Assembly (NCBI RefSeq): GCF_010672525.1
Contig: NZ_JAAHGH010000011.1
Location: 92,350 to 156,349, forward strand
Reading direction: 5' to 3'
Source of the DNA: Okeania sp. SIO2B3
GTDB lineage: Bacteria > Cyanobacteriota > Cyanobacteriia > Cyanobacteriales > Microcoleaceae
Length of the DNA stretch: 64,000 nucleotides
The translations under genes and the position numbers were made by a program. The notes beneath the pieces were generated by a model that was not told the origin of the DNA, did not search any database, and was given only the letters and a program-made list of their open reading frames with translations. Below, in pieces: positions 46,534 to 64,000 of this stretch (position 1 is its first letter; each line of letters starts with the position of its first letter).

Positions 46534-46711
46534 AGTCTTTCAATGACTTTTATTATTAATAACATTCTTGATTTCATTCTTGGTATCAGAACTAATTCTC
46601 ATAAGAAGAGAAAAGTTATGGCCAATCACTAAAGTCAGCTTTTTTCTCAATGCGTCAAGTTATAGAAGCTAATGAGTGAAAATGTCTAATTTATTGAATT
46701 GATTAATACTA

Positions 46712-47434: not shown

Positions 47435-47773
47435 ATGTTAGAAGCTTGTATATTTTTAACCATATTATTTGGATTTTTCGGCATCATCTTTAAGAAAAAT
47501 CTGGTGATGAAAATCGTCTCAATGGATATTATGAGTACGGGAGTTATTGCCTATTATGTGCTAGTAGCATCCCTAGATGGTTTGTTTACACCAATTGCGG
47601 ATAAAACCAAAAATGTTGCTTATTCCGACCCTGTTCCCCAGGCCGTTATCTTAACAGCAATTGTAATTGGCTTTTCAATTCAAGCTTTGATGTTGGTGGG
47701 TGTGATGAAGTTGGCAAAAGATAATCCCACTTTGGAAACTAGCGCAATCGAAGAAAATAACACACCATCATGA
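47435..47773 (+). CDS. mnhC: Mrp-type Na+/H+ antiporter subunit C (NuoK-like)
   Basis: A 112-aa membrane protein with three hydrophobic helices (MLEACIFLTILFGFFGIIF, MSTGVIAYYVLVASLDG, AVILTAIVIGFSIQALMLVG). It contains the conserved PQAVILTAIVIG stretch that marks MrpC against NuoK. It is the first gene of the mrp operon, whose multi-subunit complex exchanges sodium for protons in the inner membrane and relates to complex I. A 214-bp repeat-filled gap separates it from mnhD, unusual in a unit that is otherwise overlapping. Confidence 0.9.
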   Translation: MLEACIFLTILFGFFGIIFKKNLVMKIVSMDIMSTGVIAYYVLVASLDGLFTPIADKTKNVAYSDPVPQAVILTAIVIGFSIQALMLVGVMKLAKDNPTLETSAIEENNTPS

Positions 47774-47987
47774 CCAAAAAATCAGGTCTAAATCCTCTCC
47801 TTTTAAGGGGATGAAAAGCGGTCGTTAGCGTAGCTTCCCGTAGGGTGGGATGGCGAGGAAACCTTGCCATATCCAATTGACCAAGAGAAACTAAACTTCA
47901 GTATTTTCTTGCTTCTTGCTTTCCTAGGTCATGCTGCGCAAACAGCGGTCGGTACTGATAACTGATAACTGATAACTGATAACTGAA
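47774..47987 (+). repeat. Repeat insertion between mnhC and mnhD
   Basis: The segment begins ATGACCAAAAAATCAGGTC and ends with GGTCGGTACTGATAACTG and a (GATAACT)4 array directly before the mnhD start. The site before agrE (43730-43790) has ATGACCAAAAAATAG joined directly to GGTCGGTAGTGATAACTG, so about 155 bp (47782-47946) is extra here. That extra DNA includes GGTGGGATGGCGAGGAAACC and a family-5 half end. Confidence 0.7.
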
Positions 47988-49424: not shown

Positions 49425-50875
49425 CCAATATTACGATCATCTGGATGGCATTACCCTTTTTTATTGGTTTCGTTATCTATTTATTACCCAAACTAGACCG
49501 CTTTCTCGCACTGGGGATAGCATTGGTTTCAACTAACTATGCCTTGGCGATCTTTGTAGAACAGTCTCCTTTGAACATACAGTTACTCGATAATTTCGGT
49601 GTGACTTTAATCATCGACCAACTGAGTGGCTTTTTTATCATCACTAATGCTATAGTGACACTCGCAGTTATTTTTTACTGTTGGAGTAGCGAAAAAACTG
49701 CTTTTTTCTATATGCAAATAGTGATTCTGCATGGCAGCGTTAATGCTACTTTTATCTGTGCAGACTTTATGAGCGTGTATGTAGCACTAGAGGTGATCGG
49801 TATTGCTGCGTTCCTCCTGGTAGCTTATCCGCGTACAGATAGATCGATTTGGGTAGGATTGCGCTATCTGTTTGTCAGCAATACGGCAATGCTGTTTTAT
49901 TTGGTAGGAGCGGTACTGGTATATAAGGCACATCATTCCTTTTATTTTGCTGGTTTGCGCGGTTCGCCTCCTGAAGCGATCGCCCTCATATTTTTGGGAT
50001 TATTGTCCAAGGGTGGTATCTTTGTCTCAGGGTTATGGTTGCCTTTAACCCACTCCGAATCACAGAGTCCTGTATCAGCAATGTTGTCAGGAGTTGTGGT
50101 CAAAGCTGGTGTTTTTCCTCTAGTGCGTTGTGCGTTAATGTTAGAGGAAATCGATCCGATAGTGAGATTTTTTGGTGTGAGTACAGCACTTTTAGGGGTG
50201 GGTTATGCTGTATTTGAAAAAGATACTAAACGGATGCTGGCATTTCATACTATTTCGCAGTTAGGTTTTGTGCTTGCTGCGCCAGTAGTAGCTGGTTTCT
50301 ATGCTTTGACCCACGGTTTAGTTAAATCTGCTTTGTTTTTAATTGCAGGGGTTCTACCAAGCCGTAATTTTAAAGAATTGCAGTATAAACCCATTGATAA
50401 TCAGATTTGGGTTGCTTTAGTTATCGCTAGTTTTTCTATCTCTGGTTTCCCACTTTTGTCTGGTTTTGGGGCAAAAGTGTTAACCTCTAAAAATCTGTTA
50501 CCCTGGCAGGTTGTTGGGATGAATATTGCTGCTGTGGGAACAGCTATTTCTTTTGCGAAATTCATTTTTCTCCCCCACCAGGAAAACGAGGAAAAAATCA
50601 AAGTCAAACTGGGTTTTTGGTGGGCAATAGTGGTCTTACTCGGCGGATTAATTGTGGCAAATGCTTTTTATTATGAGGCTTACACCCTAAAGAATATAAT
50701 TAAACCTCTGGTAAGTATAGCTATTGGTTGGCTAGCATATCTATTTATTTTTAAGAAGTTGGCGATTAAAATTCCCCGTGTGGTCGAAGAATTTGACCAT
50801 CTGATTGGGTTTATGAGCTTCATGTTAATTTTACTTTTCTGGATAGTATGGACACAATCGGATTTTTCAATATAA
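49421..50875 (+). CDS. mnhD: Mrp-type Na+/H+ antiporter subunit D, second copy
   Basis: A 484-aa paralogue of the preceding gene, very similar in protein and, in long stretches, almost identical in DNA (for example around the motif GLRYLFVSNTAMLFYLVGAV). The same putative channel residues are kept (ALEVIGIAAF, LLSKGGIFVSGLWLPL, ALTHGLVKSALFLIAG). Two D subunits in an mrpCDDEFGAB order are known from Anabaena, so the pair may be functional, each with its own place in the complex. The last eight residues (WTQSDFSI) overlap a broken mnhE start in another frame. Confidence 0.93.
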   Translation: MTNITIIWMALPFFIGFVIYLLPKLDRFLALGIALVSTNYALAIFVEQSPLNIQLLDNFGVTLIIDQLSGFFIITNAIVTLAVIFYCWSSEKTAFFYMQIVILHGSVNATFICADFMSVYVALEVIGIAAFLLVAYPRTDRSIWVGLRYLFVSNTAMLFYLVGAVLVYKAHHSFYFAGLRGSPPEAIALIFLGLLSKGGIFVSGLWLPLTHSESQSPVSAMLSGVVVKAGVFPLVRCALMLEEIDPIVRFFGVSTALLGVGYAVFEKDTKRMLAFHTISQLGFVLAAPVVAGFYALTHGLVKSALFLIAGVLPSRNFKELQYKPIDNQIWVALVIASFSISGFPLLSGFGAKVLTSKNLLPWQVVGMNIAAVGTAISFAKFIFLPHQENEEKIKVKLGFWWAIVVLLGGLIVANAFYYEAYTLKNIIKPLVSIAIGWLAYLFIFKKLAIKIPRVVEEFDHLIGFMSFMLILLFWIVWTQSDFSI

Positions 50876-51048
50876 TCAGGACTTACCCATGAGATACGAA
50901 AAACTAAGATTTGAGATTGCTTTCTGTTCCGGACTGCTGCGCAAACCCTGTCGGTAGCTTCGGACGAAAATACTTTGCAGTTACGTAAGTCCTATATAAT
51001 ATTACGGCTGACAATATGGTTTTTACTTACCGTTGATTTTAGTCTGGC
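50848..51048 (+). pseudogene. Broken 5' copy of mnhE, interrupted by a MITE
   Basis: ATG 50848 opens MDTIGFFNII, matching MDAIAFFNII of the intact mnhE at 51334. The match stops at the MITE (50879-50992) and resumes at 50995 with TATAATATTACGGCTGACAA, continuing with only two differences over about 48 bp to 51048. A TGA and lack of later similarity end it. In this copy mnhE overlapped mnhD, as expected for the ancestral operon. From 51049 to 51333 I see no gene. Confidence 0.9.
50879..50992. mobile_element. MITE-like element, family 2, copy 2, inserted in the mnhE relic
   Basis: A 114-bp element with ends GGACTTACCCA and TTACGTAAGTCC. TATAAT is duplicated at 50871-50876 and 50995-51000, while the intact mnhE carries a single TATAAT at the same place (51356-51361). 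With the two extra bases at each end the element reads CAGGACTTAC to GTAAGTCCTA. Confidence 0.92.
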
Positions 51049-51333
51049 CATCAATTGAGCTAATTTTCTTAACAGTCAACACTTATGATCGTTAGACTTA
51101 TCTGAAAATTAAATTTTACGCTTGTTTTACGGGTACTTCAACCTAATTTTCAAAGATGTAGATTGAGAACTGTCATATGATAACTAAGGTAAGTATGAGT
51201 AACAAAATGAATGCAATATTTTCCCACATAAGTCCAGGTGATATCATTGCTTTGAAATTGAAAATTTAACGGCATAAAAGTTTATTATAGCAGAAATTAG
51301 TTATAACTGATTACTTTTTAATTACTGAATAGT

Positions 51334-51729
51334 ATGGACGCAATTGCATTTTTCAATATAATATTACGACTGACAATATGGTTTTTACTTACCGCTGATT
51401 TTAGTCTGGCAAATATTATCATTGGTGTCAGTATCGCCTTTTTATTACCCCGCAGTCGTAAATCATTAGGCGCTCTAAAAGATTGGTTAGACGTGTTATG
51501 GGAAATTGTGGTCGCAATTCCCCAGGCCTATATAGAAGCAATACAAATTATGCTTCGCCCCCATAATGATGAAGTATTGGTTTGCGAAAAAGTTAAACCA
51601 AAACGAACGCCAGGATTGATATTTCTGGATATATTTTTGATTACTTTCACCCCTAAAAGCATTGTCTTGAAATACCACGAACAAGGTTGGTATGAAGTAC
51701 ACGTAGTGCAACGGAGGAAAAACAAATGA
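51334..51729 (+). CDS. mnhE: Mrp-type antiporter subunit E
   Basis: A 131-aa protein with two N-terminal hydrophobic helices (IILRLTIWFLLTADFSLANI, IIIGVSIAFLLP) and a cytoplasmic domain with WEIVVAIPQAYIEAIQIML and the closing FLITFTPKSIVLKYHEQGWY typical of MrpE (MNHE family). It is the intact one of two mnhE sequences. The stop overlaps mnhF by ATGA. It lies 458 bp after mnhD because of the relic and the MITE; an own promoter may therefore be needed. Confidence 0.9.
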   Translation: MDAIAFFNIILRLTIWFLLTADFSLANIIIGVSIAFLLPRSRKSLGALKDWLDVLWEIVVAIPQAYIEAIQIMLRPHNDEVLVCEKVKPKRTPGLIFLDIFLITFTPKSIVLKYHEQGWYEVHVVQRRKNK

Positions 51730-51977
51730 ACTATGTTTTGATTTCTATGATTTTAGCTCTGCTCATACCCATTTATGAAGCTTGGCAGGATAATAATATT
51801 TGGCAGAAAGTACTCGCCTTTGCTAGTATTGCTACCAAAACCTCGATTATGATGTTGGTGGTATCAGTTTTGCGAGATGATTGGTCAATTGGAGTAGTTG
51901 CAGTTATCATTCTGAGTGTGGGTAATGCGGGATTAATGCTACTGGCAAATTTAATCAAAAGGTTAAACGAAGTATGA
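51726..51977 (+). CDS. mnhF: Mrp-type antiporter subunit F
   Basis: An 83-aa membrane protein with three helices (MNYVLISMILALLIPIYEAW, VLAFASIATKTSIMMLVVSV, IGVVAVIILSVGNAGLMLLA), matching the size and pattern of MrpF. Start and stop overlap the neighbours by 4 nt each, so it is translationally coupled with mnhE and mnhG. Identified mainly from position and topology. Confidence 0.8.
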   Translation: MNYVLISMILALLIPIYEAWQDNNIWQKVLAFASIATKTSIMMLVVSVLRDDWSIGVVAVIILSVGNAGLMLLANLIKRLNEV

Positions 51978-52258
51978 TTGACATTTTAAGTTATAGCTTG
52001 ATAGTTATCGGAATTATCTTCTGGTTCTGGGGAACATTCCCTCTGCTCGGGAATAGATCGGTTTTATTTAAACTCCATAGTCTTTCAGTAGCGGATACCC
52101 TTGGGTCGATGAGTATTGTTGTCGGTTTACTACTCAAAATTCCTGTTGAATGGCCGTTATTGCTCCTAGCACTGATTACTTTGGCAATTTGGAATACGGT
52201 TTTGGGATATGTTTTAGCATATTGCTCTAGTAGTGGTAATGGAGGAAAAAATGATTGA
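51974..52258 (+). CDS. mnhG: Mrp-type antiporter subunit G
   Basis: A 94-aa membrane protein with three helices and the MrpG/PhaG hallmark FKLHSLSVADTLGSMSIVVG (about 31-50), where other members have R-x-H-A-x-x-x-x-D-T-x-G. It overlaps mnhF by ATGA and the next gene by 8 nt. Part of the antiporter complex in the inner membrane. Confidence 0.9.
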   Translation: MIDILSYSLIVIGIIFWFWGTFPLLGNRSVLFKLHSLSVADTLGSMSIVVGLLLKIPVEWPLLLLALITLAIWNTVLGYVLAYCSSSGNGGKND

Positions 52259-52811
52259 TAGTTATGTTTATGTCATCATTGCTCTACTACCATTATCAGC
52301 TTTGATACTGGTATTTCAAGTTAATCCCTATAATGCTTTAATTATCCGAGCCATTTTAGGAGCAGTAGCAGCTTTGGTATATGCAGTTTTAGGAGCTGCA
52401 GATGTAGCTTTAACTGAAGCTTTAGTCGGTACAATGTTAGCTATTACTCTTTATGTTGTGGCAGTTCGTTCCTCTTTAGTAATGCGTCTGGGAATAGTTA
52501 AAGAGGTAGAGACAGAAACAGACAGTGGTTTTACTAAATTAATCTCTAAAATCAGACAAACTATTGATAAATATCATTTGCGTCTGGAATTAGTTGAATA
52601 TCCCAACAAACAAGCTTTAGAATGGGCATTGATAGGTAAAGAAGTTCACGCTATCTGTAGTCAGTCAGAACAATTAGAACCAGATAACGAACCCACTTAT
52701 CAAACTAGCATTAGAGTGCATCGTCTTTTTGAGATTATGCAAACCGAACTAACTTCATCAAAAACAACTGTGACATACATAACTGTACCAAACTTGGAGG
52801 GAAAACATTAA
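52251..52811 (+). CDS. MrpA C-terminal-type (MbhD/DUF4040) subunit
   Basis: A 186-aa protein from ATG 52251, which has GGAGG 6 nt upstream; a GTG at 52233 would add six residues and overlap mnhG more. The N-terminal 85 residues form three helices with NALIIRAILGAVAALVYAVL and GAADVALTEALVGTMLAITL, the MbhD/MnhA C-terminal signature containing the conserved D-V-A-x-T-E-A. The soluble rest (about 90-186) is a domain I do not know. In cyanobacterial mrp operons the short A subunit lacks the NuoL-like part, as here. The stop overlaps mnhB by one base. Confidence 0.85.
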   Translation: MIDSYVYVIIALLPLSALILVFQVNPYNALIIRAILGAVAALVYAVLGAADVALTEALVGTMLAITLYVVAVRSSLVMRLGIVKEVETETDSGFTKLISKIRQTIDKYHLRLELVEYPNKQALEWALIGKEVHAICSQSEQLEPDNEPTYQTSIRVHRLFEIMQTELTSSKTTVTYITVPNLEGKH

Positions 52812-53473
52812 TGAAATGGGTTTATCTTATAGCTGGAATAGCATTGTTCATCAAAGTGTTAGTTATGCCAAACCCACAAGCAGAATGGGAAGAAATTTCT
52901 ATTGTAGGAGCGATCGTAGAAGATAGTGGAGTACCAAATGCAGTTTCTGGCATCATTTTTAGAAATCGACTCTACGATACAATTTTTGAAGTAGTGGTAT
53001 TTACGATCGCTATTTTGGGCGTGGGTTTTCTCCTCGCAAATGAGAAACCCACTGAAAAAGTTTATCAATTTAGCGATCAACCTTCAATTGTCCTAGCGCG
53101 TCTGGGAGCAACTATTACCGCGTTGGTGAGTATTGAGCTAGCAATTAGGGGACATCTGAGTCCTGGTGGTGGGTTTGCGGCAGGGGTTGCTGGAGGAACT
53201 GCTATTGGTTTGATTGCTATTACTTCATCATCCGAACAGATGGAGAAAATCTATAAAAAGTGGAATGCTGCTACTTGGGAAAAGGTTTCGGTTTTAATAT
53301 TTATTGTATTGGCAGCTATAACTCTGATGGGATTGGAATTACCTAAAGGAGAGTTAGGTACCCTTGTTAGTGGAGGCATTATGCCGATACTTAATATTTT
53401 AGTGGCACTAAAAGTAGCATTGGGTTCCTGGGCAGTTATTTTATTGTTTATTCGTTATCGGGGGTTGTTGTGA
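52811..53473 (+). CDS. mnhB: Mrp-type antiporter subunit B, with MbhE-like N-terminal part
   Basis: A 220-aa membrane protein. The first 80 residues resemble MbhE, the extreme C-terminal piece of MrpA (GIIFRNRLYDTIFEVVVFTI). Residues about 90-220 are the MnhB domain with RGHLSPGGGFAAGVAGGTAI (about 113-132), the family signature. Thus the pieces of a normal MrpA are split over this and the preceding gene. It is the last gene of the operon. No clear terminator is seen; a G-rich palindrome lies in the 53474-53639 gap. Confidence 0.9.
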   Translation: MKWVYLIAGIALFIKVLVMPNPQAEWEEISIVGAIVEDSGVPNAVSGIIFRNRLYDTIFEVVVFTIAILGVGFLLANEKPTEKVYQFSDQPSIVLARLGATITALVSIELAIRGHLSPGGGFAAGVAGGTAIGLIAITSSSEQMEKIYKKWNAATWEKVSVLIFIVLAAITLMGLELPKGELGTLVSGGIMPILNILVALKVALGSWAVILLFIRYRGLL

Positions 53474-53587
53474 AGGTAGGGAGATGGGGGGATGGGGGGA
53501 TGGAACTAAGTCAGAAGTTAGAAGATTGTACCAAATCCGTTGATCAAAAGTACCTTTTTCAAATCCCTCTCTAACCATCTCCCCACA

Positions 53588-53622
53588 TTCCCCTCCTGGG
53601 AGGGGTTAGGGGTGGGTTCCCC
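53588..53622 (-). other. G-rich palindromic motif between mnhB and the CHAT gene
   Basis: CCCCTCCTGGGAGGGG forms a strong hairpin, followed by TTAGGGGTGGG; four G-runs lie on the plus strand, so a G-quadruplex is possible. It sits between convergent genes and could act as a bidirectional terminator. The same motif recurs at many other places in the window. Confidence 0.75.
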
Positions 53623-53639
53623 ATCTCCCCAAAAAATCA

Positions 53640-56600
53640 TCAACGCAAACCCGCACAAATAAACCCACTCCAATATTCGGGATGCTCGAATGGATGCTCT
53701 TTTTGACAGGCTTTTTTTAATGGTTCCTCTTTAATTATTTTCGATATCTTTTTTTCCACTCGCTCCCGCTCCTCATATTCAAACTGCAACTGTTGATACT
53801 CTGGAGCATTTTCGGCACAACCATCAAGCTTTTGTTTTGCTGCCGCTTTCTTCTGAGATGCTAGCTGTAATTTTTTATTCAGCAACTGCTCTAACTCTTG
53901 ATAATATTCCCTCTCAAACTCCTTCCCTGTTAAATGCCGTAAATCTTGTTGAGCTTTTTGCAACGCTTGGGGACGATTAAAACCAGTTTTTCGTTTTTGA
54001 TGATAAAAAAAGGAAAACAATGATGTTGCTAAGTCATTTACTGCCCACAACGAGCTAATTACACCCCTGGCACCTGCACATAAAAAACCTGTATTTAAGG
54101 TCATGGTATCATCGGTGATTTCTGTGGTACCGAGATTGGTTTCGCAGCACGAGAGGAATACTTCGTCTAAGTCGGGGAAGCGGAAGGCGGGAGATAATAA
54201 GTCGCTCAATGTAATCCTGCCATCTGCTAAGGTTAATTCTGACTCCAGACTGTTGTCAAAGCGAGATTTGGCGTGATGACTGGATAATAATCCTTGTACT
54301 TCCTTTAATAATTCTTTGTAGTTGCTGACGGTTGCCTTGTTGCCTTGGAGATATTTATCAGTGTTATATATTTGTGCGACTTTTTGAGCTTCAAAACTGC
54401 TGAATGGCAAATCTTCTCGGGTATTTTCGACGATACCATAAGCGGGGGTTGGGGTGGATATGGGCGGACGTTGGGTGCAGAAGTCGAGGGTTTGGCAGCT
54501 AGACAGGGTGCGGATGAGGAATTGATCGCCGAGATATTTGTTATCTGCTAGGGGTAAGGCAGCGAAGGGGATTTGATGTAAGTACAAGTGGGGTATGACG
54601 ATCAATTCTTGGATGCCTGTTAATTTCTCTACTAATTTATCTAACTGCAACCGCTGACTAATTTCTTTGAGGTTTGATGGCATTTGTTCATCCCAGAACA
54701 AGTAGGTTGACTCTAATTTTTCAAATTCTGATTCATCTAAAGACTGGCTACTACCGTCTTTAAAGAAGACCGTCACTGTGTCTATTTCTGGGTCCACAGA
54801 GTCGATTGTGTTGGGGTCACATCCTAACAATTTCGCTGCTACTATTGGTGATGAGGGTGGGCGATCGCTTTCAGGCATCCCAGACCAAACATAAGGCTCG
54901 AACCAGTTTTCCAACAACCATCTTTGCAAGTCGTCGAGGCCATGCCCGCAATGATGTAAATCTACGCGATTACCTACAAGTATAAAAGCGTAGGTGTCTT
55001 CTAAGGTGCTAAAAAAGCTTACAATGGCCGTAGTAGCCCTATCTCGCACCAGATTTTGCAATTTGTCTAATTCCAAGGGGTTTACTGCCAAACCTTCTGC
55101 TAATACTTCATCAAATTTGCGTATTTGGCGGTAAATTTTTTGTTTGTCTGCTTCTAAGGTGGTGATGCGGTCGTTCCTTGCTTGCCAGGAAGCGCTTATT
55201 TGTCTGGAGTTAGTAGTATCAAGAGTTCCTTGGTAGTAGTTGGGGGATTTGTTATTAAATCGCAAATTATCTAGTTGTCGTTGTATCTCTTCGTATTGCT
55301 GCAATAACTTGATAACTTCTGGGCGCGTTTCTCCTTGAGAATAGATATCTTTACTATACATTAAATCAACTAACTGACGGTTGCGAGATTGTTCGGCGTA
55401 TGTTAAAGCTTGGGCGTATTGCCCTGTATTGACAAAGGATTGGATGATGTTGTTATAGACCCTAATGGCATTTTTGAGGATTTCTTGGCGGCTATTGTCG
55501 GTTTTTCTCCCAGTTCTTAATATTTCTGTTGCTTCTATGGCTTGGGTGTAAGCTTTGATAGCGTCTTCCCAGTTGCCTTGAATAAAGAATAAATAACCTA
55601 GAGAGTCTGCATTTCTGGCACAATCTACAGGCATTGTTTTGGGAGTTGCGATCTTCAGGGATTTTTGGAGATGAGCGATCGCCTGTTTGTGTTGCTCTAA
55701 GTAATAATAAGTGGTACCCAAATTTCCCAAAGCTACTGCTTCTGTTTGCCGATCTTCAATTTTTTCTGCGATTGTTAAAGACTGTTGGTAGAACTCTATT
55801 GCCTGTTCATATTTTTCTTGGGAAGAGTAAGCAAAACCTAAATTCCCCAAAGCACTTCCTTCTCCTTGAAAGTCTTCGATTTTTTGGACAATTTCTAATT
55901 GCTGTTGGAGAAAATCAATCCCTTGTTCGTATTTTCCCTGCTTAGAGTAAGCAAAACCTATATTTCCCAAAGCTTTTGCTTGTCCTCTAGGGTCTGAGGT
56001 ATTTCGTGCAATTTGAAAATACTCAATCGCCTGTTCGTATTTTTCTAAACAAAGATAACAAAGACCTAAATTTGCTATAGCATTTGCTTCTCCTTGGCGG
56101 TCTCCGATTTTCTGTGCAATTTTTAATTGTTGTAGGAGGAAATCAATCGCCCGTTCGTACTGTCCTAAAACAAGGTAACAAATACCTAAATTGCCTAAAC
56201 TACCTGCTTCTATTTTATGGTATGTAATTTCCCGTGCAATTTCTAAAGATTGTTTGTGAAACTTTATCGCCTGATCAAATTGTCCTAGATAACGGTAAGG
56301 AATACCTATATTTACCAGAACCTCCGCTTCCAATTCACGGTCTTTGATTTCTTGAGATTGAGCAATTTCTAATGCCTTTTGGAAGAACTCAATAGCTTGT
56401 TGGTATTGTCCTAGTAAAGTGTAACAAAGACCCAAATTTACCAAAGCACCTGCTTCCAGTTCACGGTTTTTGATTTCTCGCGTAATTTCTAAGCATTGTT
56501 GATGGCACTCAATCGCCTGTTTATATTGCCCATGTGAACCGTAAGTAACACCTAAAACCTCGAAGGAAGCTAGTTCTCCCATACGGTCTTTGATTTCGCG

Positions 56601-56942
56601 AAAGATAGTAATTGTCTGTTGGCAACATTGGAAGGTGAAAGTAAATAGGCTTGTTTGAGACCATCTCACACCTATCTCCAACAAAACATTTGCCGTCTCT
56701 TTTCTAATTGTAGAGTCTTTTTGGGAATTACCTAAAAAGATGCCTAATTTTAGGATTAGATTCGACAGAAACTTTGCACCATCAAAATTATCATTGTTCG
56801 CGAGGTATTCTGCTGCCTGCGCCATTACTGGCAATAAGCTCGGCACAATTAGTTGTTGATTGGTACTTAAAACTTTGTTAACTTCTTCCTGATTTCTACA
56901 GGCAAGCAGTTGCTTTATTAAATCGATAAATTCTTGTTCCAT
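53640..56942 (-). CDS. TPR-CHAT protein (caspase-like protease domain)
   Basis: An 1100-aa soluble protein. After a 100-residue helical start come about ten TPR units of 40 residues (about 100-540), such as LGNLGFAYSSQEKYEQAIEF. A linker with coiled-coil character follows (about 545-660). The C-terminal part (about 660-1100) is a CHAT domain: catalytic His in LLSSHHAKS (H889/H890) and Cys in VFLSCCETNLG (C932/C933), then GARGVISSLWAVND. A Lys/Glu-rich coiled coil (about 1010-1070) is inserted before the final HPEYWSGFICAGLR strand. Known TPR-CHAT proteases, such as those bound to type III-E CRISPR effectors, cut partner proteins when activated; no CRISPR genes are here. It is divergent from two genes of unknown function. 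Confidence 0.92.
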   Translation of the reverse strand: MEQEFIDLIKQLLACRNQEEVNKVLSTNQQLIVPSLLPVMAQAAEYLANNDNFDGAKFLSNLILKLGIFLGNSQKDSTIRKETANVLLEIGVRWSQTSLFTFTFQCCQQTITIFREIKDRMGELASFEVLGVTYGSHGQYKQAIECHQQCLEITREIKNRELEAGALVNLGLCYTLLGQYQQAIEFFQKALEIAQSQEIKDRELEAEVLVNIGIPYRYLGQFDQAIKFHKQSLEIAREITYHKIEAGSLGNLGICYLVLGQYERAIDFLLQQLKIAQKIGDRQGEANAIANLGLCYLCLEKYEQAIEYFQIARNTSDPRGQAKALGNIGFAYSKQGKYEQGIDFLQQQLEIVQKIEDFQGEGSALGNLGFAYSSQEKYEQAIEFYQQSLTIAEKIEDRQTEAVALGNLGTTYYYLEQHKQAIAHLQKSLKIATPKTMPVDCARNADSLGYLFFIQGNWEDAIKAYTQAIEATEILRTGRKTDNSRQEILKNAIRVYNNIIQSFVNTGQYAQALTYAEQSRNRQLVDLMYSKDIYSQGETRPEVIKLLQQYEEIQRQLDNLRFNNKSPNYYQGTLDTTNSRQISASWQARNDRITTLEADKQKIYRQIRKFDEVLAEGLAVNPLELDKLQNLVRDRATTAIVSFFSTLEDTYAFILVGNRVDLHHCGHGLDDLQRWLLENWFEPYVWSGMPESDRPPSSPIVAAKLLGCDPNTIDSVDPEIDTVTVFFKDGSSQSLDESEFEKLESTYLFWDEQMPSNLKEISQRLQLDKLVEKLTGIQELIVIPHLYLHQIPFAALPLADNKYLGDQFLIRTLSSCQTLDFCTQRPPISTPTPAYGIVENTREDLPFSSFEAQKVAQIYNTDKYLQGNKATVSNYKELLKEVQGLLSSHHAKSRFDNSLESELTLADGRITLSDLLSPAFRFPDLDEVFLSCCETNLGTTEITDDTMTLNTGFLCAGARGVISSLWAVNDLATSLFSFFYHQKRKTGFNRPQALQKAQQDLRHLTGKEFEREYYQELEQLLNKKLQLASQKKAAAKQKLDGCAENAPEYQQLQFEYEERERVEKKISKIIKEEPLKKACQKEHPFEHPEYWSGFICAGLR

Positions 56943-57168
56943 AGTGATATTAAGCCTAGGAAAATACTGGTCAAAAATGGGTTGTGCTCAAGGAAAATCA
57001 GCCCAACAAACATAGGTTTTTGTCAGGTGGCGCTACAGCCCAACCCAATTTTCTGTATTACGACAAATTATCCGGATTTAATACTAATTTTTCTGAATAT
57101 TTCTTCTAGTATCCACCACTCTTTTGCGGTGGAGCAAGTTTATTTGAACCTCTTAGTTATCTGGACTT
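56943..57168. promoter_or_regulatory. Divergent promoter region of the CHAT locus
   Basis: 226 bp separate the starts of the TPR-CHAT gene and the 159-aa gene, so both promoters must lie here. I see no strong operator-like palindrome. A short inverted pair TTTGTCAGG/CCTTAT is not convincing. Confidence 0.5.
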
Positions 57169-57648
57169 ATGAATATAGCAACTGACAATACTTTACTTGC
57201 TTTTTTATTAGCTTTGAAAAACCTCGAAAACCCCCTCAGCGAAAACGAACGGGAGGCATTGGCAAAAATAAGCCAAAAACTGAAAAAAAACCCCAACGAC
57301 TGGAATTTCACTGAAAAGAAATTGATGGCCATCATCAAAGCTAATCAAGCACTCAACCAACTATATCAGCAGGCCAAGACCAAACTGGATGCCCTAGATC
57401 GCCCAATTCCCTTTGACTTGATGCCCACTGAGGCCGAATTAGAAAAAGTCCTACCTCCAGAAAGCAAGGGTGGCACACGCGCTCATCTCCCCTATGGTGA
57501 AGGCGAACCCAACAAACAAAGCAACGAAATTTTCAATCTAAGTGTCAAAGTTCTTCCTACTGAAAAACCAGAAGAAACTGCTAAAAAACTCTCTTTTCTA
57601 GAAAGACTTTCCCAATTCCTAAACCAGCCTACTTCAAAAAATGACTGA
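57169..57648 (+). CDS. Hypothetical protein in the CHAT locus, 159 aa
   Basis: A soluble, charged, mostly helical protein without a signal peptide. The first 70 residues form helices (LLAFLLALKNLENPLSENER, AIIKANQALNQLYQQAKTKL) and contain NPNDWNFTEKKLM; then comes a Pro-rich linker (DRPIPFDLMPTEAELEKVLP) and a disordered tail with a final helix SFLERLSQFLNQP. I know no family for it. It overlaps the following gene by 8 nt and is therefore translationally coupled with it. Confidence 0.65.
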   Translation: MNIATDNTLLAFLLALKNLENPLSENEREALAKISQKLKKNPNDWNFTEKKLMAIIKANQALNQLYQQAKTKLDALDRPIPFDLMPTEAELEKVLPPESKGGTRAHLPYGEGEPNKQSNEIFNLSVKVLPTEKPEETAKKLSFLERLSQFLNQPTSKND

Positions 57649-59191
57649 CCTCATCTATCCTAACCTATTTCTATTTCTTTACGACCTCCGAGAAGGTTTA
57701 GGAGAAAGCAAAGAAGACTTAGAAAATAATCGCAAAACATTTGCATCCAAATTACCCGAACATCTGCATAATTCCCTATTCAAACTCGACGGCGTAATAG
57801 AAACCGAATACCTCGAACTTTTGACACAAAAAATTGAGTATTTTCGCGACGACATTCCCGACGAAGGCTATTATTATCCTGTCCGAATAAATGATACTTA
57901 TGGACTATTAATAGCCACTTCTTTTCCTAACAATAAAACTCGTCATCCCACCAATAGCATCGCCCAACTAAAAAACCAAATCGAAGCCAAACTCAAAGAT
58001 TCATCCGGCAAAATTCAAACAGGAAATCTCGGACAAACTTGGTTAGTCTTAGCCGAATTAGCTAATAACAAAAACCCAGAAGAAATCGCCAAACAATGCT
58101 GCGAAACATTAAATCTTGGCTTCGACTGGGAAAAAGATTTGCAAGGTCAAGGAAAACTGTTAGGAGGAACAATCTTTGAATTACGACAATACCGCATTAC
58201 CATGTCAGAAAATATAGATTTTTCCTCACCACCAACTATTGAAGAAATCCAGAAAAATAATCATCTCATAATTTCTCTCTATCCCAACGAACAAACAGCC
58301 AAAAAAGCAGCAGAATTTAACTTTGATTTGCTCCGTTTACTTTGTTACCTGCACAAAATTTTATGGGCTTATGCTCAGAGTCGCTATCTGAAAGAATTAC
58401 TCAAAAAATCTGCCATAGAAATTCAACAATATATCCAAGAAATCCAGAAATATCAAAACCCTAGTTTAAATCTCAAACCACTACAGAAAATATTAGTAAA
58501 ATCTCAAACAACTTTATCTAACTATTCAATTAACTTAGGCTATTTCGACAGTCAAATCCGCACCATAGAAATTAATCTGCTCAACTACCAAAGACGCTTA
58601 GATAGAATCAGAGAAAAAGCCACATCAAAAGCCCTGGAAAATCTCTTACCAGAAAACATTCCCACTCCAATTTCCCAACTTTCCAAACTCACAATAAATG
58701 GAGAAGATATTTCATCAATATTAGCTCGTTTTATAACCACCCCCGGAGTCACAACCGACCTCAAATTTATCGAAAAATTCCCTCAAGAAATAACCGAAAA
58801 ATATCAGCTACAAATGCAAAAAGATTATGCCAATCTCAGCCCCAATTTAAAACTATTAGAAGACCTAATAAACTCCATTCGTGGCATCACAGAAATAGAA
58901 CAAGCAGAGAGCGATCGCCACTTTCAAGAACTCGTCGCCATTATCGGTGTGGGATTAGGTGCAGGTGCCAGCATTGCCTCCATTTCTGGTCATTTTCCTT
59001 ATGTTATTGGTACTGCCAAAGCTAGTCATCATCCAGTAGGCAAGTTTCTGTCTAAATATTCAGTACCCGAACCCTGGTTAGCAGGAGGAATCTCAATTGT
59101 ATTTAGTTTGGGTGCCAGCATGATTGGTATAGTGGGAGTTAAACTATGGTTGTATATAGCAAAAAAATGGGAGCAACGTTCTCGGCGATAA
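57641..59191 (+). CDS. Two-TM membrane protein in the CHAT locus, 516 aa
   Basis: Residues 1-240 are a mixed alpha/beta domain starting IYPNLFLFLYDLREGLGESK, resembling no enzyme I can name. Residues about 245-340 are strongly helical with coiled-coil character (ELLKKSAIEIQQYIQEIQKY). Two hydrophobic helices close the protein, about 431-450 (LVAIIGVGLGAGASIASISG) and 480-505 (GGISIVFSLGASMIGIVGVK), followed by a basic tail. The long coiled coil with two C-terminal TM helices recalls CorA-like channels, though the GMN motif is absent. Coupled to the 159-aa gene and divergent from TPR-CHAT, it could be a membrane effector or a protease target; this is inference. Confidence 0.7.
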   Translation: MTDLIYPNLFLFLYDLREGLGESKEDLENNRKTFASKLPEHLHNSLFKLDGVIETEYLELLTQKIEYFRDDIPDEGYYYPVRINDTYGLLIATSFPNNKTRHPTNSIAQLKNQIEAKLKDSSGKIQTGNLGQTWLVLAELANNKNPEEIAKQCCETLNLGFDWEKDLQGQGKLLGGTIFELRQYRITMSENIDFSSPPTIEEIQKNNHLIISLYPNEQTAKKAAEFNFDLLRLLCYLHKILWAYAQSRYLKELLKKSAIEIQQYIQEIQKYQNPSLNLKPLQKILVKSQTTLSNYSINLGYFDSQIRTIEINLLNYQRRLDRIREKATSKALENLLPENIPTPISQLSKLTINGEDISSILARFITTPGVTTDLKFIEKFPQEITEKYQLQMQKDYANLSPNLKLLEDLINSIRGITEIEQAESDRHFQELVAIIGVGLGAGASIASISGHFPYVIGTAKASHHPVGKFLSKYSVPEPWLAGGISIVFSLGASMIGIVGVKLWLYIAKKWEQRSRR

Positions 59192-59355
59192 CTGAAAATA
59201 TTAGAGTAGGGATGTTGGATGCAACGTCCCTAGACAGGTTGCATTAATTAACCACAACAGGACTTACGCAAAATATCATATCATACACCATTACTTAAAA
59301 GGGGAGGCTATTAACCTCATTTTTTGGTCATAAAAAACCGGGTTTATAGAAGTTA

Positions 59356-59504
59356 TACCATGTCCGGATAATCAGTGATAAAAAAACCTTTTCCCTTCTA
59401 ACCTTTTCTTTCCTTCTGCCTTTTCCCCCCTTTCAAAGGGGGGGTAGGGGGGATGCCTTCTGCCTTACCTCCTCCAAAGTGTAAGTATTCAACCGGACAT
59501 GATA
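59356..59504. mobile_element. MITE-like element, family 3, copy 2
   Basis: Ends TACCATGTCCGG and CCGGACATGATA with TTA on both sides (59353-59355 and 59505-59507), 149 bp. The subterminal GTGATAAAAAAAC block matches copy 1. A one-ended family-2 terminus GGACTTACGCA lies just before it at 59260. The other DNA in 59192-59606 has no gene. Confidence 0.9.
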
Positions 59505-59606
59505 TTAGAAAAGCGATCGCTATTTTCTTCCCCACTTTTAAAGTTTTGACAGTCAGCGAATTTAGCGTTATAATGCTTGCTAAAAGAAACCCATAATTTT
59601 TGATAT

Positions 59607-59855
59607 ATGGACGACCTCAAACTATTAGATAGGATTTCTGTTAATCCCCAAATTTTCAACGGCAAACCCATAATTCGCGGACGTCGTTTGGCAGTCGAAC
59701 ATATCTTAGGAATGTTAGCGGCAGGGGACACTCCAGAGACTATTCTTGAAGGTTATGCTTGGTTAGAACCAGAAGATATCCAAGCTTGTCTGGTTTATGC
59801 CTATAAATTAGTCAGTCGCGAGCGAGTGGAACCATTATTAATAGAAAGTAAATGA
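59607..59855 (+). CDS. DUF433 antitoxin
   Basis: An 82-aa helix-turn-helix protein of the DUF433 family, the usual partner of DUF5615 PIN-like toxins. The family pattern is clear: RISVNPQIFNGKPIIRGRRL at 9-28, then ILGMLAAGDTPETILEGYAW and LEPEDIQACLVYAYKLV. It likely binds its own promoter and neutralises the toxin. Its stop overlaps the toxin start by ATGA, giving tight coupling. A MITE ends about 100 bp upstream. Confidence 0.93.
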   Translation: MDDLKLLDRISVNPQIFNGKPIIRGRRLAVEHILGMLAAGDTPETILEGYAWLEPEDIQACLVYAYKLVSRERVEPLLIESK

Positions 59856-60208
59856 TCAAACTGCTACTCGATACTTGCGTTTGGGGTGGAGTTCGTGCCC
59901 AGTTGCAAGCTAATGGTTATGATGTCATATATACCGGTGACTGGTTAAAAGACCCAGGCGATGAAGAGATTTTGACTAGAGCTTACAACGAACAGCGGAT
60001 TTTAATTACTCTTGATAAGGATTTTGGTGAAATGGCAATCGTTCGCGGCCAGCCTCACAGCGGAATTATCCGTTTGGTAAATGTCGCTGCCAAACAACAA
60101 GCCCCCGTTTGTGTTCAAGTTCTCATGCGTTACGAGAGCGAACTACAGGCAGGAGCTATTGTTACGGCATCTCCAGGAAGGGTAAGAATTCGTGGTAGCT
60201 CTGACTAA
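59852..60208 (+). CDS. DUF5615 PIN-like toxin
   Basis: A 118-aa PIN-like nuclease-fold protein. It begins IKLLLDTCVWGGVRAQLQAN with the first acidic residue (D7), has DVIYTGDWLKDPGDEEILTR and RILITLDKDFGEMAIVRGQP with the second acidic cluster (D64, D66), and ends with an HSGIIRL strand, as in the DUF5615/Mut7-C-like family. It probably cleaves RNA when free of the DUF433 partner. Length is normal and the key Asp residues are kept, so the module looks intact. Confidence 0.92.
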   Translation: MIKLLLDTCVWGGVRAQLQANGYDVIYTGDWLKDPGDEEILTRAYNEQRILITLDKDFGEMAIVRGQPHSGIIRLVNVAAKQQAPVCVQVLMRYESELQAGAIVTASPGRVRIRGSSD

Positions 60209-60434
60209 AGCGATGTTGCATCCGCAACTCTTCGCGAACGCGCCACAAACAACCCATCCATTACTAACCTAACTCAAAAATAACAGAACTTACGCACGGA
60301 CACTAAATTGAGTGAGGGCGAATGCCATTACCCCCTACATTTAGGGTGGCATTGCAGAGCAATATTGCTTCCTATTTTATCTACTGATAATAGCATAAAT
60401 AAAGACAAATATCGCCCCGCAAATCCCAATTTAA

Positions 60435-61061
60435 TTAATGTTCAAAAATATCTTTATACTGCAATAAATCTAATCCCACAAACACGGGTAAACATTCAAA
60501 ACACTGCTGTGCTAATTCCCACCTTTCCTCTCGTTTCAACATTTGAATTAACTTCTCCCTGACACTCAATAAATAACGCACATCATTAGCAGCATAACTC
60601 AATTGTTCCTCAGTTAAATTCTCTGCATTTCCCCAATCAGAACTTTGAGCAGATTTATCTAACTCTACTTTTTCTAACTCCATTACTAAATCTTTTAAAC
60701 CATGTTTACCTGTATAAGTTCGTGCTAACTTACTAGCAATTTTGGTACAGAAAATTGGGGAAACTTTAATATCTAAATGATGCTGCAACATTGCTACATC
60801 AAATCTGGCAAAATGAAATATTTTAACTATTTCTGTTGCCTCCATTAATTGTTTTAAATTAGGTGCTTCTTGCTGCCCTTTTTCAATCCGAATTGCTGTA
60901 ACTGTACCTTGAGAATTGCATAACTGGACTAAACATAAGCGATCGCGCCCCGGCAACAAACCCATGGCTTCTGTATCCACTGCAATACTATCAGTTTGCA
61001 AATAATCAGATAATATGGCCTCCGTTAAATCGCGATCGCATACTTGAAAATCACTCATCAT
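60435..61061 (-). CDS. RNase D-like 3'-5' exonuclease
   Basis: A 208-aa protein consisting of the DEDDy exonuclease domain alone. The catalytic residues are visible: D29 and E31 in AVDTEAMG, D88 in HFARFDVAML, and Y166/D170 in LSYAANDVRYLL. The HRDC domains of classical RNase D are absent, so this is the short cyanobacterial form, probably acting on RNA 3' ends. Two ATGs (61061, 61058) give starts differing by one Met. It stands alone; 60209-60434 shows a one-ended family-2 terminus (AGAACTTACGCA, about 60285). Confidence 0.93.
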   Translation of the reverse strand: MMSDFQVCDRDLTEAILSDYLQTDSIAVDTEAMGLLPGRDRLCLVQLCNSQGTVTAIRIEKGQQEAPNLKQLMEATEIVKIFHFARFDVAMLQHHLDIKVSPIFCTKIASKLARTYTGKHGLKDLVMELEKVELDKSAQSSDWGNAENLTEEQLSYAANDVRYLLSVREKLIQMLKREERWELAQQCFECLPVFVGLDLLQYKDIFEH

Positions 61062-61137
61062 TCACCTAATAATTACTAATATTTTTTAGACTCAACAATT
61101 ATATCAAATGTGCTTGCTTTTGCGTCATTCCAGCGTC

Positions 61138-61469
61138 AGTCCAGTAGGGTGTGTTAGCAAAGCGTAACGCACCAGACACACTTAAATGTTGCTACAAAAA
61201 AATCAGTCAAACCTTCCTATAACAAGAGTTATACCAAAAAATCTAATGCACACTTTTAGCTGTGTCAGTCTACTACGACTAGACTTTGGGATGGTGCGTT
61301 ACCAAATAATTAATAATTAATAATTAATAATTAATAATTAAATAATTCTGGTTTAAAGCCTCCCCTTTTCAAGGGAAAAAAAGTGCTAGGATATTTCCTT
61401 ATATTCAATTCCGTAACGGTTTTAAGCAGAGGTAATTATCAATTAATGAATAACGCACCCTACTGGACT
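61138..61469. mobile_element. MITE-like element, family 8 (AGTCCAGTAGGGTG ends)
   Basis: AGTCCAGTAGGGTGTGTTA (61138-61156) and TAACGCACCCTACTGGACT (61451-61469) are inverted with 18 of 19 positions matching. The inside holds another repeat, the inverted copy of the 35505-35695 element with its AATTATT heptamers (about 61305-61455), so elements are nested. No coding capacity in 332 bp. Confidence 0.82.
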
Positions 61470-61503
61470 AATTTATGGGCACAGAATAATATAGTAAATT
61501 AGC

Positions 61504-61962
61504 TTAAAAATTATCTTTCATTACTAAAATTTTCTCTGCCACATTTTGAGCAACAGGCATTACGGATAACCTATTTCCTTTCTTAGTAACTAACAATTCA
61601 TCTGGGCTAAATTCTTGTTTCAAAATAGCCAAAGATATTAACTGAGGAAACTCTTCTACAAACTCCACAGAAACAGTTTGCCACCGAGGCGTATCAGGAG
61701 TAGATTTGGGGTCATAATATTTGCTTTTTTGGTCAAATTGAGTAGGGTCAGCAATGCCACTTTCTAATATTTTTACTAATCCAATAATGCCAGGTGGTAC
61801 AATATTAGAATGATAGAAAAATGCTAAATCTCCCTGATTCATTTGTCGCAAAAAATTCCGAGCTTGATAATTTCTAACTCCATCCCAAATACAAGTTTTT
61901 TCATGTTTCATATCTGAGATACTGTAAGTTTTTGGTTCAGATTTCATTAGCCAATATTTCAT
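61504..61962 (-). CDS. EVE-domain protein
   Basis: A 152-aa single-domain EVE (PUA-like) protein, of the kind thought to read modified bases in nucleic acids. Family marks are YWLMKSEPKTYSISDM at the start, CIWDGVRNYQARNFLRQMNQ with the conserved W-x-G-V-R-N-x-x-A-R, DLAFFYHSNIVPPGIIGLVK, and WQTVSVEFVEEFP later. Length is normal. It is monocistronic. EVE proteins also occur in modification-dependent restriction, but no partner nuclease is adjacent. Confidence 0.95.
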   Translation of the reverse strand: MKYWLMKSEPKTYSISDMKHEKTCIWDGVRNYQARNFLRQMNQGDLAFFYHSNIVPPGIIGLVKILESGIADPTQFDQKSKYYDPKSTPDTPRWQTVSVEFVEEFPQLISLAILKQEFSPDELLVTKKGNRLSVMPVAQNVAEKILVMKDNF

Positions 61963-62094
61963 TATTTATTTAAAAATAATATATGATTATTTGAATACTT
62001 AAATACAAATACTACTATGAAAAATATAGTAGAGCAAGCTAAGTCTAATCACAAAAATCAACTAGCGATCGCCAGTTTTGGCTATAATTAAACA

Positions 62095-62182
62095 GGACTT
62101 ACGCATAACCACCATATTTAGTAGGGGCAAATGGCATTTGCCCTCTACAGGTAGCGTATTGTCTAAGAGTTTGCGTAAGTTC
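62095..62182. mobile_element. MITE-like element, family 2, copy 3
   Basis: An 88-bp element with ends GGACTTACGCA and TTTGCGTAAGTTC; the inverse pairing extends outward (TTAAACAG and CTGTTAAA). The centre has the GGGGCAAATGGCATTTGCCC palindrome. The rest of 61963-62395 is AT-rich and should hold the promoter of the first Uma2 gene. Confidence 0.82.
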
Positions 62183-62395
62183 TGTTAAAAATAGACTTTT
62201 TCAACTGGTTGAAAGTCTAGTCAAAAAAGAGCGATCGCTAACCTTACCTACTGGACCAACACAGCTAAAATGATGCGTTAGATGGGGAGATGGGGAGATA
62301 GGGAGAAAAAGACACCTAGAAACAAAAATAAGAGTGTACAGTTTTAGGTGTGTCAGTCTACTACAATATAAAATATATCTTTTCCTACAAAACCT

Positions 62396-63037
62396 ATGAG
62401 CAAAACCCAAACCCAACTACCAACAGAAACTTGGATAACAGCAACTTGGGAAGAATACATCCAAACTATTGAAGACCCAAGTTATGAAAAAGCCAAAATT
62501 TACTACCACAAAGGAAAACTCAGAATAGAAATGTCACCACTAGGAAATGACCACGCTAAAGACCATGCAGTTATTATAGCTGCAGTTGCTTTCTTTGCTA
62601 CCACTAAAAATATTGCTATGAATGGTAGAGATAACTGTACCTACCGCAAAACTGGATGTCGAGCAGCTCAACCTGATGCTTCCTATTACATTGGGGAAAA
62701 TGCTGATGTCATTCCTTGGGGAAATTCTTTTATTGACCTGGATATTTATCCTCCACCAACTCTGGTTATCGAAGTTGCTAATACTTCTCTTCCTGATGAT
62801 ATAGGGAAAAAACGTTTGCTTTATGAAGCACTTAATATTGCTGAATATTGGATAGTTGATGTTCAGAATGTAGAAATTATTGCCTTTGCTATTGCTAACG
62901 GTGGCAGTAGAAAAATCGATCAGTCTCAAGTTTTGCCTGGTTTAGACATTTCTTTATTAGAGGAAGCACTTCAGCGTACTCGTCAAACAAATCAAACTCA
63001 AGTTTATGCTTGGTTATTAGAGCAGTTTCAATCTTAG
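62396..63037 (+). CDS. Uma2-family (DUF820) putative nuclease, copy 1
   Basis: A 213-aa protein of the Uma2 family, a PD-(D/E)XK-like fold greatly expanded in cyanobacteria. Visible core elements are YYHKGKLRIEMSPLGNDHAK, QPDASYYIGENADVIPWG with the first acidic residue, TLVIEVANTSLPDDIGKKR with the E-x-x and Lys, and the YEALNIAEYWIVDV helix/strand. Natural function is unproven; suggestions link the family to mobile DNA. Start ATG 62396 gives MSKTQTQLPTETWI. It is followed by a near-identical second copy. Confidence 0.9.
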   Translation: MSKTQTQLPTETWITATWEEYIQTIEDPSYEKAKIYYHKGKLRIEMSPLGNDHAKDHAVIIAAVAFFATTKNIAMNGRDNCTYRKTGCRAAQPDASYYIGENADVIPWGNSFIDLDIYPPPTLVIEVANTSLPDDIGKKRLLYEALNIAEYWIVDVQNVEIIAFAIANGGSRKIDQSQVLPGLDISLLEEALQRTRQTNQTQVYAWLLEQFQS

Positions 63038-63094
63038 AAGGGAGTAGAGATGTTGCATACAACGTCTCTACAAAGCTATCATGATCAGGAGTTA

Positions 63095-63289
63095 TATCAT
63101 GTTCGGACGGGTCAGTTATAATAAAATTTAAGGACTCCGGGTACCGACAGTACCAAAGAAATAATGAAATTATGAATACCTCATCTCCAATATTTCATAA
63201 GTATTTCTCCTTTCTTTCCTCCTGAGGACTGAGGACTGAAGACTGAGGACTCACAACAGTTATTTATAAGTATTCAACCGAACATGATA
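63095..63289. mobile_element. MITE-like element, family 3, copy 3, between the two Uma2 genes
   Basis: Ends TATCATGTTCGG and CCGAACATGATA (matching each other, one base changed from copy 1), with TTA on both sides (63092-63094 and 63290-63292); 195 bp. The matched base change in both ends implies a distinct subfamily. It contains a (GAGGACT)n heptamer run at about 63221-63252. Confidence 0.92.
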
Positions 63290-63316
63290 TTACACACTAT
63301 ACTTTTTTCACAAAAC

Positions 63317-63958
63317 ATGAACCAAACCCGAACCAAACTACCCACAGAAACTTGGATAACAGCAACTTGGGAAGAATACATTCAAATTATTGAAGACCCA
63401 AGTTATGAAAAAGCCAAAGTTTACTACCACAAAGGAAAACTCAGAATAGAAATGTCACCATTAGGAAATGACCACGCTAAAGACCATGCAGTTATTATGG
63501 CTGCAGTTGCTTTCTTTGCTGCGACTAAAAATATTGCCCTGAGTAGTAGAGATAACTGCACCTATCGCAAAACTGGACTTCGAGCAGCTCAACCTGATGC
63601 TTCCTATTACATTGGGGAAAATGCTGATGTCATTCCTTGGGGAACTTCTTTTATTGACCTGGATATTTATCCTCCACCAACTCTAGTTATTGAAGTTGCT
63701 AATACTTCTCTTCCTGATGACATAGGAAAAAAACGTTTGCTTTATGAAACACTTAATGTTGCTGAATATTGGATAGTTGATGTGCAGAATGTAGAAATTA
63801 TTGCCTTTGCTGTTGCTAATGGTGGTAGTAGAAAAATCGATCGGTCTCAAGTTTTGCCTGGTTTAGACATTTCTTTATTAAATGAGGCGCTTCAGCGCAC
63901 TCGTCAAACAAATGAAACTCAAGTTTATACTTGGTTATTACAGCATTTTCAGGCATAG
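63317..63958 (+). CDS. Uma2-family (DUF820) putative nuclease, copy 2
   Basis: A 213-aa tandem paralogue of the preceding gene, about nine tenths identical in protein and similar in DNA from the first codons to the end. The same core is kept (QPDASYYIGENADVIPWG, TLVIEVANTSLPDDIGKKR). ATG 63317 (MNQTRTKLPTETWI) is the start aligned with copy 1; the upstream ATG at 63284 lies in the MITE end and would add 11 foreign residues. Because the MITE sits directly upstream, it must shape the promoter of this copy. Confidence 0.9.
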   Translation: MNQTRTKLPTETWITATWEEYIQIIEDPSYEKAKVYYHKGKLRIEMSPLGNDHAKDHAVIMAAVAFFAATKNIALSSRDNCTYRKTGLRAAQPDASYYIGENADVIPWGTSFIDLDIYPPPTLVIEVANTSLPDDIGKKRLLYETLNVAEYWIVDVQNVEIIAFAVANGGSRKIDRSQVLPGLDISLLNEALQRTRQTNETQVYTWLLQHFQA

Positions 63959-64000
63959 GGAGTAGGGACTAACCATGCTTAGTCTCTACAAGGTTATCAT

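Follow-up and report, generated by a model that had tools for sequence, protein, structure and literature searches.

The 64,000-nt stretch analysed here (the window: positions 92,350-156,349 of NZ_JAAHGH010000011.1, Okeania sp. SIO2B3, GCF_010672525.1) carries a conserved unit made of a caspase-superfamily protease (P1), a small protein (p2) and a membrane protein (p3), and the layout of this unit recurs beyond chance. We are highly confident that the three proteins work together. Read from sequence, their linkage suggests a protease-triggered membrane or cell-death switch. We give about an even chance to its specific form, in which P1, p2 and p3 would make up one protease-gated membrane system, the protease cutting p2 and the freed p3 acting on the membrane. 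The features concerned are the following, numbered by position in the window.

53640..56942, minus strand: P1, TPR-CHAT caspase-superfamily protease, 1100 amino acids (aa); proposed sensor and protease
53649..54635, minus strand: CHAT domain of P1, residues 770-1098 (PF12770)
54273-54275 and 54144-54146, minus strand: codons of P1 His890 and Cys933 (from the Csx29 alignment and column counts)
55518..56561, minus strand: TPR region of P1, about residues 128-475 (TPR_12, TPR_1, TPR_7, others); proposed sensing part
56943..57168, no strand: 226-bp gap common to the divergent P1 and p2 genes
57169..57648, plus strand: p2, 159 aa, without known family; proposed p3 inhibitor or adaptor and protease substrate
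57478..57483, plus strand: candidate cut site Arg104-Ala105 in the p2 linker, consensus [RK]-[GA]-aromatic
57641..59191, plus strand: p3, 516 aa, without known family, with a coiled-coil-like middle and a C-terminal hydrophobic hairpin; proposed membrane effector
58931..58987, plus strand: hydrophobic segment 1 of p3, residues 431-449, glycine-rich and better conserved than segment 2
59078..59134, plus strand: hydrophobic segment 2 of p3, residues 480-498 (hydropathy)

The linkage was followed in the stretches around p3 relatives, where genes were labelled in 88 loci (numbered with L) using local profiles for p2, p3, CHAT and C14. L126-L129, the same records as L047, L046, L048 and L049, were dropped, and the count given below requires a p3 of at least 400 aa, which leaves out L050, L071 and L145 (short p3) as well as L090 and L012 (without p3); L131 contributes two p3. 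A CHAT or C14 open reading frame (ORF) lies within 3.5 kb upstream or 1.5 kb downstream in 79 of the 84 p3 loci. A layout that varies among relatives, or a p3 family that always stands alone, had been set beforehand as what would refute the first-pass annotation of this DNA. The outcome favours that annotation, and p3 turns out to be rarely alone: the misses are L055, L064, L151 and L165, where the contig ends 60-1656 bases upstream, and L131, whose second p3 sits behind a C14-p2-p3 set. Measured to the nearest edge, the first 2.5 kb upstream of the 84 p3 starts contain 78 protease ORFs and the interval 2.5-4.5 kb another 5, against 4 in the roughly 660 kb lying further upstream or 1.6-9 kb downstream, a background of about 60-fold lower density; some protease genes, split over two ORFs, are counted twice. 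The local C14 profile was trained on nine of these same loci. As a check on it, ten partner N-termini were scanned alone and all ten exceeded the PF00656 cut-off, as did full-length scans of L052, L053, L056-L059, L122 and L131. The p2 profile places p2 ahead of p3 in 61 pairs around the 84 p3, and a small ORF (75-200 aa, less than 250 nt away) stands ahead of p3 in 73 of 84. At L131 (7009-8400 and 10465 onward, minus strand) a 480-aa gene separates the two p3 copies, which lie behind one p2 and one divergent C14.

At the locus itself, the first-pass annotation had described an intact TPR-CHAT protein sharing a 226-bp divergent gap with two overlapping genes, and this was borne out. All three ORFs of the window are intact, p2 and p3 overlap by 8 nt on the plus strand, and the CHAT part of P1 reaches 120.7 bits against PF12770 in Pfam (curated cut-off 24), many TPR models being matched too. 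When the same part is aligned to the solved chains of Csx29 (E 6.9e-9), H890 and C933 face a Csx29 His and Cys; of the 40 CHAT matches in the locus census, 36 have His in the H890 column and all 40 have Cys in the C933 column. Hydropathy agrees with the earlier description of p2 as soluble and of p3 as carrying two C-terminal transmembrane helices, giving no segment in p2 and two near the C-terminus of p3. The coiled-coil-like insert reported near the end of the CHAT domain is indeed there, but it does not set the module apart: L014, a paralogue from the host genome without p2-p3 alongside, is 57% identical over this region and has a similar insert by eye, so the insert belongs to that CHAT clade. 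The 226-bp gap contains one promoter-like and one terminator-like match, about what shuffled sequences give, and is uninformative.

Seen across the loci, the proposed three-gene protease module holds as a conserved unit, but CHAT does not define it, a Peptidase_C14 partner being about equally frequent. The two kinds of protease differ in their usual orientation. C14 is mostly head-to-head with p2-p3 (as the nearest protease, divergent in 35 loci, same-strand upstream in 4, downstream in 1), while TPR-CHAT is mostly upstream on the same strand (33 loci, with 4 divergent and 2 downstream convergent). The last two, L121 and L122, are near-copies and both also have a divergent C14. Partner C14 proteins carry nSTAND1 and WD40 in L051, L052, L062, L065, L131 and L144, nSTAND1 alone in L056 and L057, nSTAND1 with Trypsin_2 in L122, and no further family in L058; TPR alone is the module on some partner proteases. 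Because the protease modules vary while p2-p3 stays constant, p2-p3 looks like a shared output. Two odd partners were met in passing. A 1913-aa frame beside p2-p3 (L053:8843-14584, plus strand) combines Peptidase_C14, ATPase, TPR and RelA/SpoT-TGS-ACT parts, and at L059:8878-12177 (plus strand), divergent from p2-p3, a C14 is joined to a region with below-cut-off matches to MreB/FtsA-like (actin-like) families.

The window belongs to the few loci with a divergent CHAT: these are the window, L046, L047 and L048, all with P1 orthologues divergent from p2. L196 also has an orthologous CHAT and a divergent p2, at a contig end, with a further C14 gene about 1.7 kb beyond the CHAT. In a tree of the 84 p3 (midpoint-rooted for drawing only), one branch (99/97) sets off 50 rows: every one of the 41 whose upstream protease is a C14, the four CHAT rows of the window group, and five that lack an upstream protease label. 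Partner type thus agrees with the p3 tree, the upstream-C14 rows all falling on one side of this branch. Together with L049, a Trichodesmium locus with C14 pieces, the four CHAT rows form a set of 5 (100/100) nested in otherwise C14-partnered sets of 11 (100/96) and 14 rows (99/94); the four CHAT rows themselves may or may not be a single clade (53/90). In L049 the C14 gene is split over separate ORFs, of which a 130-aa piece scores with PF00656 and the rest reads by eye as nSTAND and WD40; the split may reflect decay or an assembly fault. As the window p3 nests in a C14-partnered group and yet has a divergent CHAT, the protease was probably swapped. The simplest reading seems to be one replacement of C14 by CHAT in the Okeania/Hydrocoleum lineage, with p2-p3 unchanged. 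The incoming CHAT seems to have been recruited from TPR-CHAT genes without such a partner, because none of 21 related, non-orthologous CHAT loci (19 hand-chosen from the match list, plus L013 and L014) has p2 or p3 within the stretches examined, some of which end at contig ends.

We aligned 47 of the 64 p2 matches, those of the C14-type and window-clade loci, leaving out 15 from same-strand CHAT loci, L145 and the fused L012. In the column of the window's R104, the residue is basic in 42 of 47 (R 35, K 7, F 3, L 2), the next column is G or A in 42 of 47 (G 29, A 13), and the third is often aromatic (Y 22, F 10, H 3). The first two of these columns hold 3.15 and 2.83 bits, most columns between 92 and 117 holding 1-2 bits, and [RK][GA] occurs at the site in 37 of 47 proteins, whereas 2000 shuffles of the linker give it in 0.9 on average and in 6 at most. 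Among the 29 small upstream proteins of same-strand CHAT loci, 10 contain R[SN]K[GSAF] (0.07 on average and at most 1 after shuffling). A preference for Arg at the P1 position of the cut (not to be confused with the P1 protein) is reported for cyanobacterial orthocaspases, partly from docking and partly from earlier MaOC1 work cited by the authors (PMC8283722), so the basic motif of p2 fits a C14 substrate. The window p2 retains this C14-type motif though its protease is now a CHAT, and we predict that the window CHAT also cuts after Arg. Altogether, we consider it reasonably probable that the protease cuts p2 at R104. The first-pass annotation had suggested looking for a CHAT cut site in the 516-aa or the 159-aa protein; the best candidate lies in the latter, at R104-A105, with a cut in p3 as its rival.

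Some loci depart from this pattern. In L155 and L137 the partner C14 has a changed DCC motif (DSC and NCC) and p2 has F or L at the proposed cut position; in L137 the C14 matches are split over two ORFs. A coupling between a non-basic position and a changed DCC is suggestive, but the cases are few and L059, L121 and L122 are non-basic yet keep DCC, and we did not retain it. In the host genome, a p2-like domain is fused to the N-terminus of a CHAT protein of 741 aa (L012:5870-8095, minus strand), with T-F-G at the motif position by eye. Behind the fusion, in the same orientation, comes a 559-aa protein that by eye has C-terminal hydrophobic stretches, and convergent to it lies a frame with a C14 match and a WD40-like end.

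In the mechanism that we propose, the TPR part of P1 would sense a trigger and activate the CHAT protease (H890/C933), which would cut the p2 linker after Arg104 and split the N-terminal domain (about residues 1-95) from the C-terminal tail (about 105-159). Intact p2, encoded just ahead of p3 in an overlapping gene, would keep p3 inactive. Once p2 is cut, p3 would assemble via its coiled coil, and the glycine-rich hairpin at its C-terminus would insert or open; the membrane would depolarise and the cell would stop or die. To this last part, the arrest or death of the cell through freed p3 acting on the membrane, we would give marginally less than even chances. The purpose of such a switch would be defence.

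Several observations weigh against this reading. The loci share descent and were chosen by hand from search lists, and L050, in Okeania, has a shortened p3 with neither p2 nor a labelled protease within the stretch examined. Under a looser hydropathy cut-off applied to the last 170 residues, two segments are found in 39 of 84 p3 and other numbers in 45. As to p2, the motif column was picked post hoc from the alignment and an aligner favours aligning the motif, so that the shuffle overstates the case; a looser count of the motif anywhere in the linker, which the positional count replaced, stands out far less (31 of 37, where shuffles give 18.5 on average and 29 at most). The proposed cut residue is non-basic, F or L, in 5 of the 47 p2, and R[SN]K[GSAF] is missing from 19 of the 29 small upstream proteins of same-strand CHAT loci. 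The L012 fusion, for its part, fits an adaptor role of p2 at least as well as a substrate role.

The cut could also be in p3, where several basic residues are conserved. Directly ahead of segment 1, R414 is kept as R in 42 of 45 C14-type rows, the window clade included, and in 23 of 33 rows with a same-strand CHAT. Where the coiled coil ends, columns 318, 319 and 326 are basic in 78, 87 and 96% of C14-type rows, and the stretch from Y316 to F380 varies in length from 17 to 69 residues. A protease cutting at R414-G415 or in the basic region 318-326 would free a hairpin fragment as in gasdermins and leave p2 as an adaptor, in line with its fusion to a CHAT domain in L012. We nevertheless regard such a cut as unlikely: across the variable stretch 331-379, none of the columns reaches 70% basic residues, nor do columns 318, 319 and 326 in the same-strand CHAT rows; the R414 site looks helical by eye, and what follows R414 is variable (in the 45 C14-type rows, 19 G, 16 S, 6 V, 3 A and 1 T).

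An equally doubtful alternative turns the order of events around, with p3 as a sensor that reports membrane or envelope stress via p2 to a protease whose real substrates lie elsewhere. The C-terminal hydrophobic segments of p3 would suit it, the L012 fusion could make p2 an activating adaptor, and membrane-associated caspase systems with a constant transmembrane component have been described (Kaur 2020, PMC7159879). Yet the proteases have varied sensor-like modules of their own (STAND, WD40, TPR), beside which the constant p2-p3 looks like an output, and the conserved basic motif of p2 is left unexplained. It is more improbable by far that p2-p3 is a membrane-anchored regulatory switch, in which the cut of p2 would free a regulatory fragment and not a toxin, like Csx29/Csx30/CASP-sigma. 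A TPR-CHAT protease that cuts a sigma-factor inhibitor provides a precedent (PMC10028731), whereas no DNA-binding family exceeds the Pfam cut-off in p2 or p3 of the window, a weak objection, as other neighbours were clustered and not annotated.

Among known systems, bacterial gasdermin operons encode a membrane-acting protein beside a protease, which is of more than one kind. They resemble the protease-p2-p3 unit in having a protease beside a membrane protein, as in the 79 of 84 p3 loci, a trait common to other protease-gated systems. Compared by sequence and not by fold, p3 differs: no gasdermin family exceeds the Pfam cut-off in the window p3 or appears among the matches listed for 33 p3 relatives, p3 has a C-terminal hydrophobic hairpin and a coiled-coil-like middle, and a dedicated small protein, p2, is here the likelier substrate. 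In the animal caspase/ICAD/CAD pathway, the caspase removes a cleavable inhibitor of a death effector. The logic proposed for p2 and p3 would be alike, with a membrane protein replacing the nuclease and with inhibition by p2 as the proposed step; homology is not claimed.

Csx29 of type III-E systems is, as P1, a TPR-CHAT protease; its catalytic pair is H615/C658, and it makes a single cut in a loop of the inhibitor protein Csx30 (PMC10028731). P1 aligns to it with the catalytic pair in place but scores 59.3 bits, far below the cut-off of 300 of the Csx29 model. The partner here is a membrane protein, the protease may be a C14, and no CRISPR-like array lies in 44000-64000. On the last point the earlier description of a module without CRISPR parts holds as far as arrays go: none is seen there (direct repeats of 22 nt or more, at most 120 nt apart), cas genes including Cas7-11 not having been searched for, and the sole direct-repeat family of that size sits inside the TPR gene. 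The caspase-nuclease (canu) and trypsin-nuclease pairs place proteases of different families beside related gated effectors, the canu protease being of the caspase family and its effector a nuclease gated by its own insertions (PMC12799240). The likeness is a caspase-family protease beside an effector, with differing protease families; here the effector would be a membrane protein accompanied by a separate small protein, and sequence searches give no nuclease family above cut-off in p2 or p3 of the window (p2 scores 18.9 bits with RT_RNaseH, against a cut-off of 24.8). Finally, EACC1/EACC2-caspase and TRADD-N systems of multicellular bacteria associate caspase genes and variable modules with a constant component (PMC7159879, PMC8195603). 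Gene order differs here, and no EAD, EACC or TRADD-N family is among the Pfam matches listed for p2, p3 and their relatives. The nearest known systems are bacterial gasdermins, Csx29/Csx30 and canu, and on the tests made the module is assignable to none of them; we file it with protease-gated effector systems as a broad class.

Other family searches brought little. The p2 and p3 of the window have no match above cut-off in Pfam or NCBIfam and no convincing one in PADLOC. Pfam scans of 33 p3 and 24 p2 relatives give scattered weak matches, the best in p3 relatives being a TBK1 coiled-coil model (3.8e-5) and the SLAC1 voltage-dependent anion channel (2.3e-4), each in one of the 33. The best PDB profile match of p3, to ATP synthase subunit c along the glycine-rich hairpin (E 0.008), was rejected and taken as a composition effect; a CorA-like layout was considered and dropped as unsupported by any search; and the PDB profile search with p2 gives nothing convincing (best E 0.39). 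In the titles and abstract openings returned by literature searches, the p2-p3 pair is not described.

The named relatives of p3, at 82-93% identity over the best segment, come from Okeania (three records, one of them partial), Hydrocoleum and Trichodesmium (one each). A single-sequence query found relatives in 46 of the 386 genomes sampled from the phylum, and a 33-row profile found them in 224 of the 388 sampled from the order, spread over 97 of 149 genera. Both searches scored only the best few candidates per genome, the order-wide one the top four, a point to be added to those weighed against our reading above. Eleven plasmid records also carry p3 relatives (Tolypothrix 6, Microchaete 3, Nostoc 1, Planktothrix 1), several being near-copies; 4 of these records are typed conjugative and 6 mobilizable. 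The phage collection gave no p3 match. On one Tolypothrix plasmid (L125:1-8413), the TPR-CHAT/p2/p3 set lies directly behind genes annotated as a TnsA-like endonuclease and an ATP-binding protein, and may be carried by a Tn7-like element. The host genome (G000, 10.0 Mb) has 43 CHAT matches, 42 of them above cut-off, and 14 Peptidase_C14 matches, beside two p2 matches, one intact p3 and one short p3 fragment, a remnant with a stop (L216; G000:C135:95974-96198, minus strand).

To our knowledge, few natural substrates are known for bacterial CHAT and C14 proteins. The p2-p3 pair offers a specific candidate substrate with a predicted cut site, together with a candidate killing protein. Tentatively, and at somewhat under even chances, we put forward p2-p3 as a widespread, gasdermin-independent, caspase-gated membrane-killing system of cyanobacteria, in which a constant, cleavable ICAD-like inhibitor and its effector would be served by exchangeable caspase sensors (C14-STAND-WD40, C14 with other modules, TPR-CHAT). 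If this is true, many cyanobacterial orthocaspases and CHAT proteins would gain their missing substrate. The apparent swap at orthologous p2-p3 also permits a direct comparison of C14 and CHAT as possible triggers of one output.

Elsewhere in the window, a second caspase-like gene lies at 24280-27003 (minus strand). It matches the local C14 profile (E 3.6e-9), has GHG and DCC motifs and, by eye, a STAND-like ATPase part, and is not in the Pfam C14 listing of the genome. Two adjacent and very similar genes for multi-pass membrane proteins, at 47988-49424 and 49421-50875 (plus strand), are presumably antiporter subunits. Two further genes very similar to each other, at 62396-63037 and 63284-63958 (plus strand), we take to be of the Uma2-type nuclease-like family.

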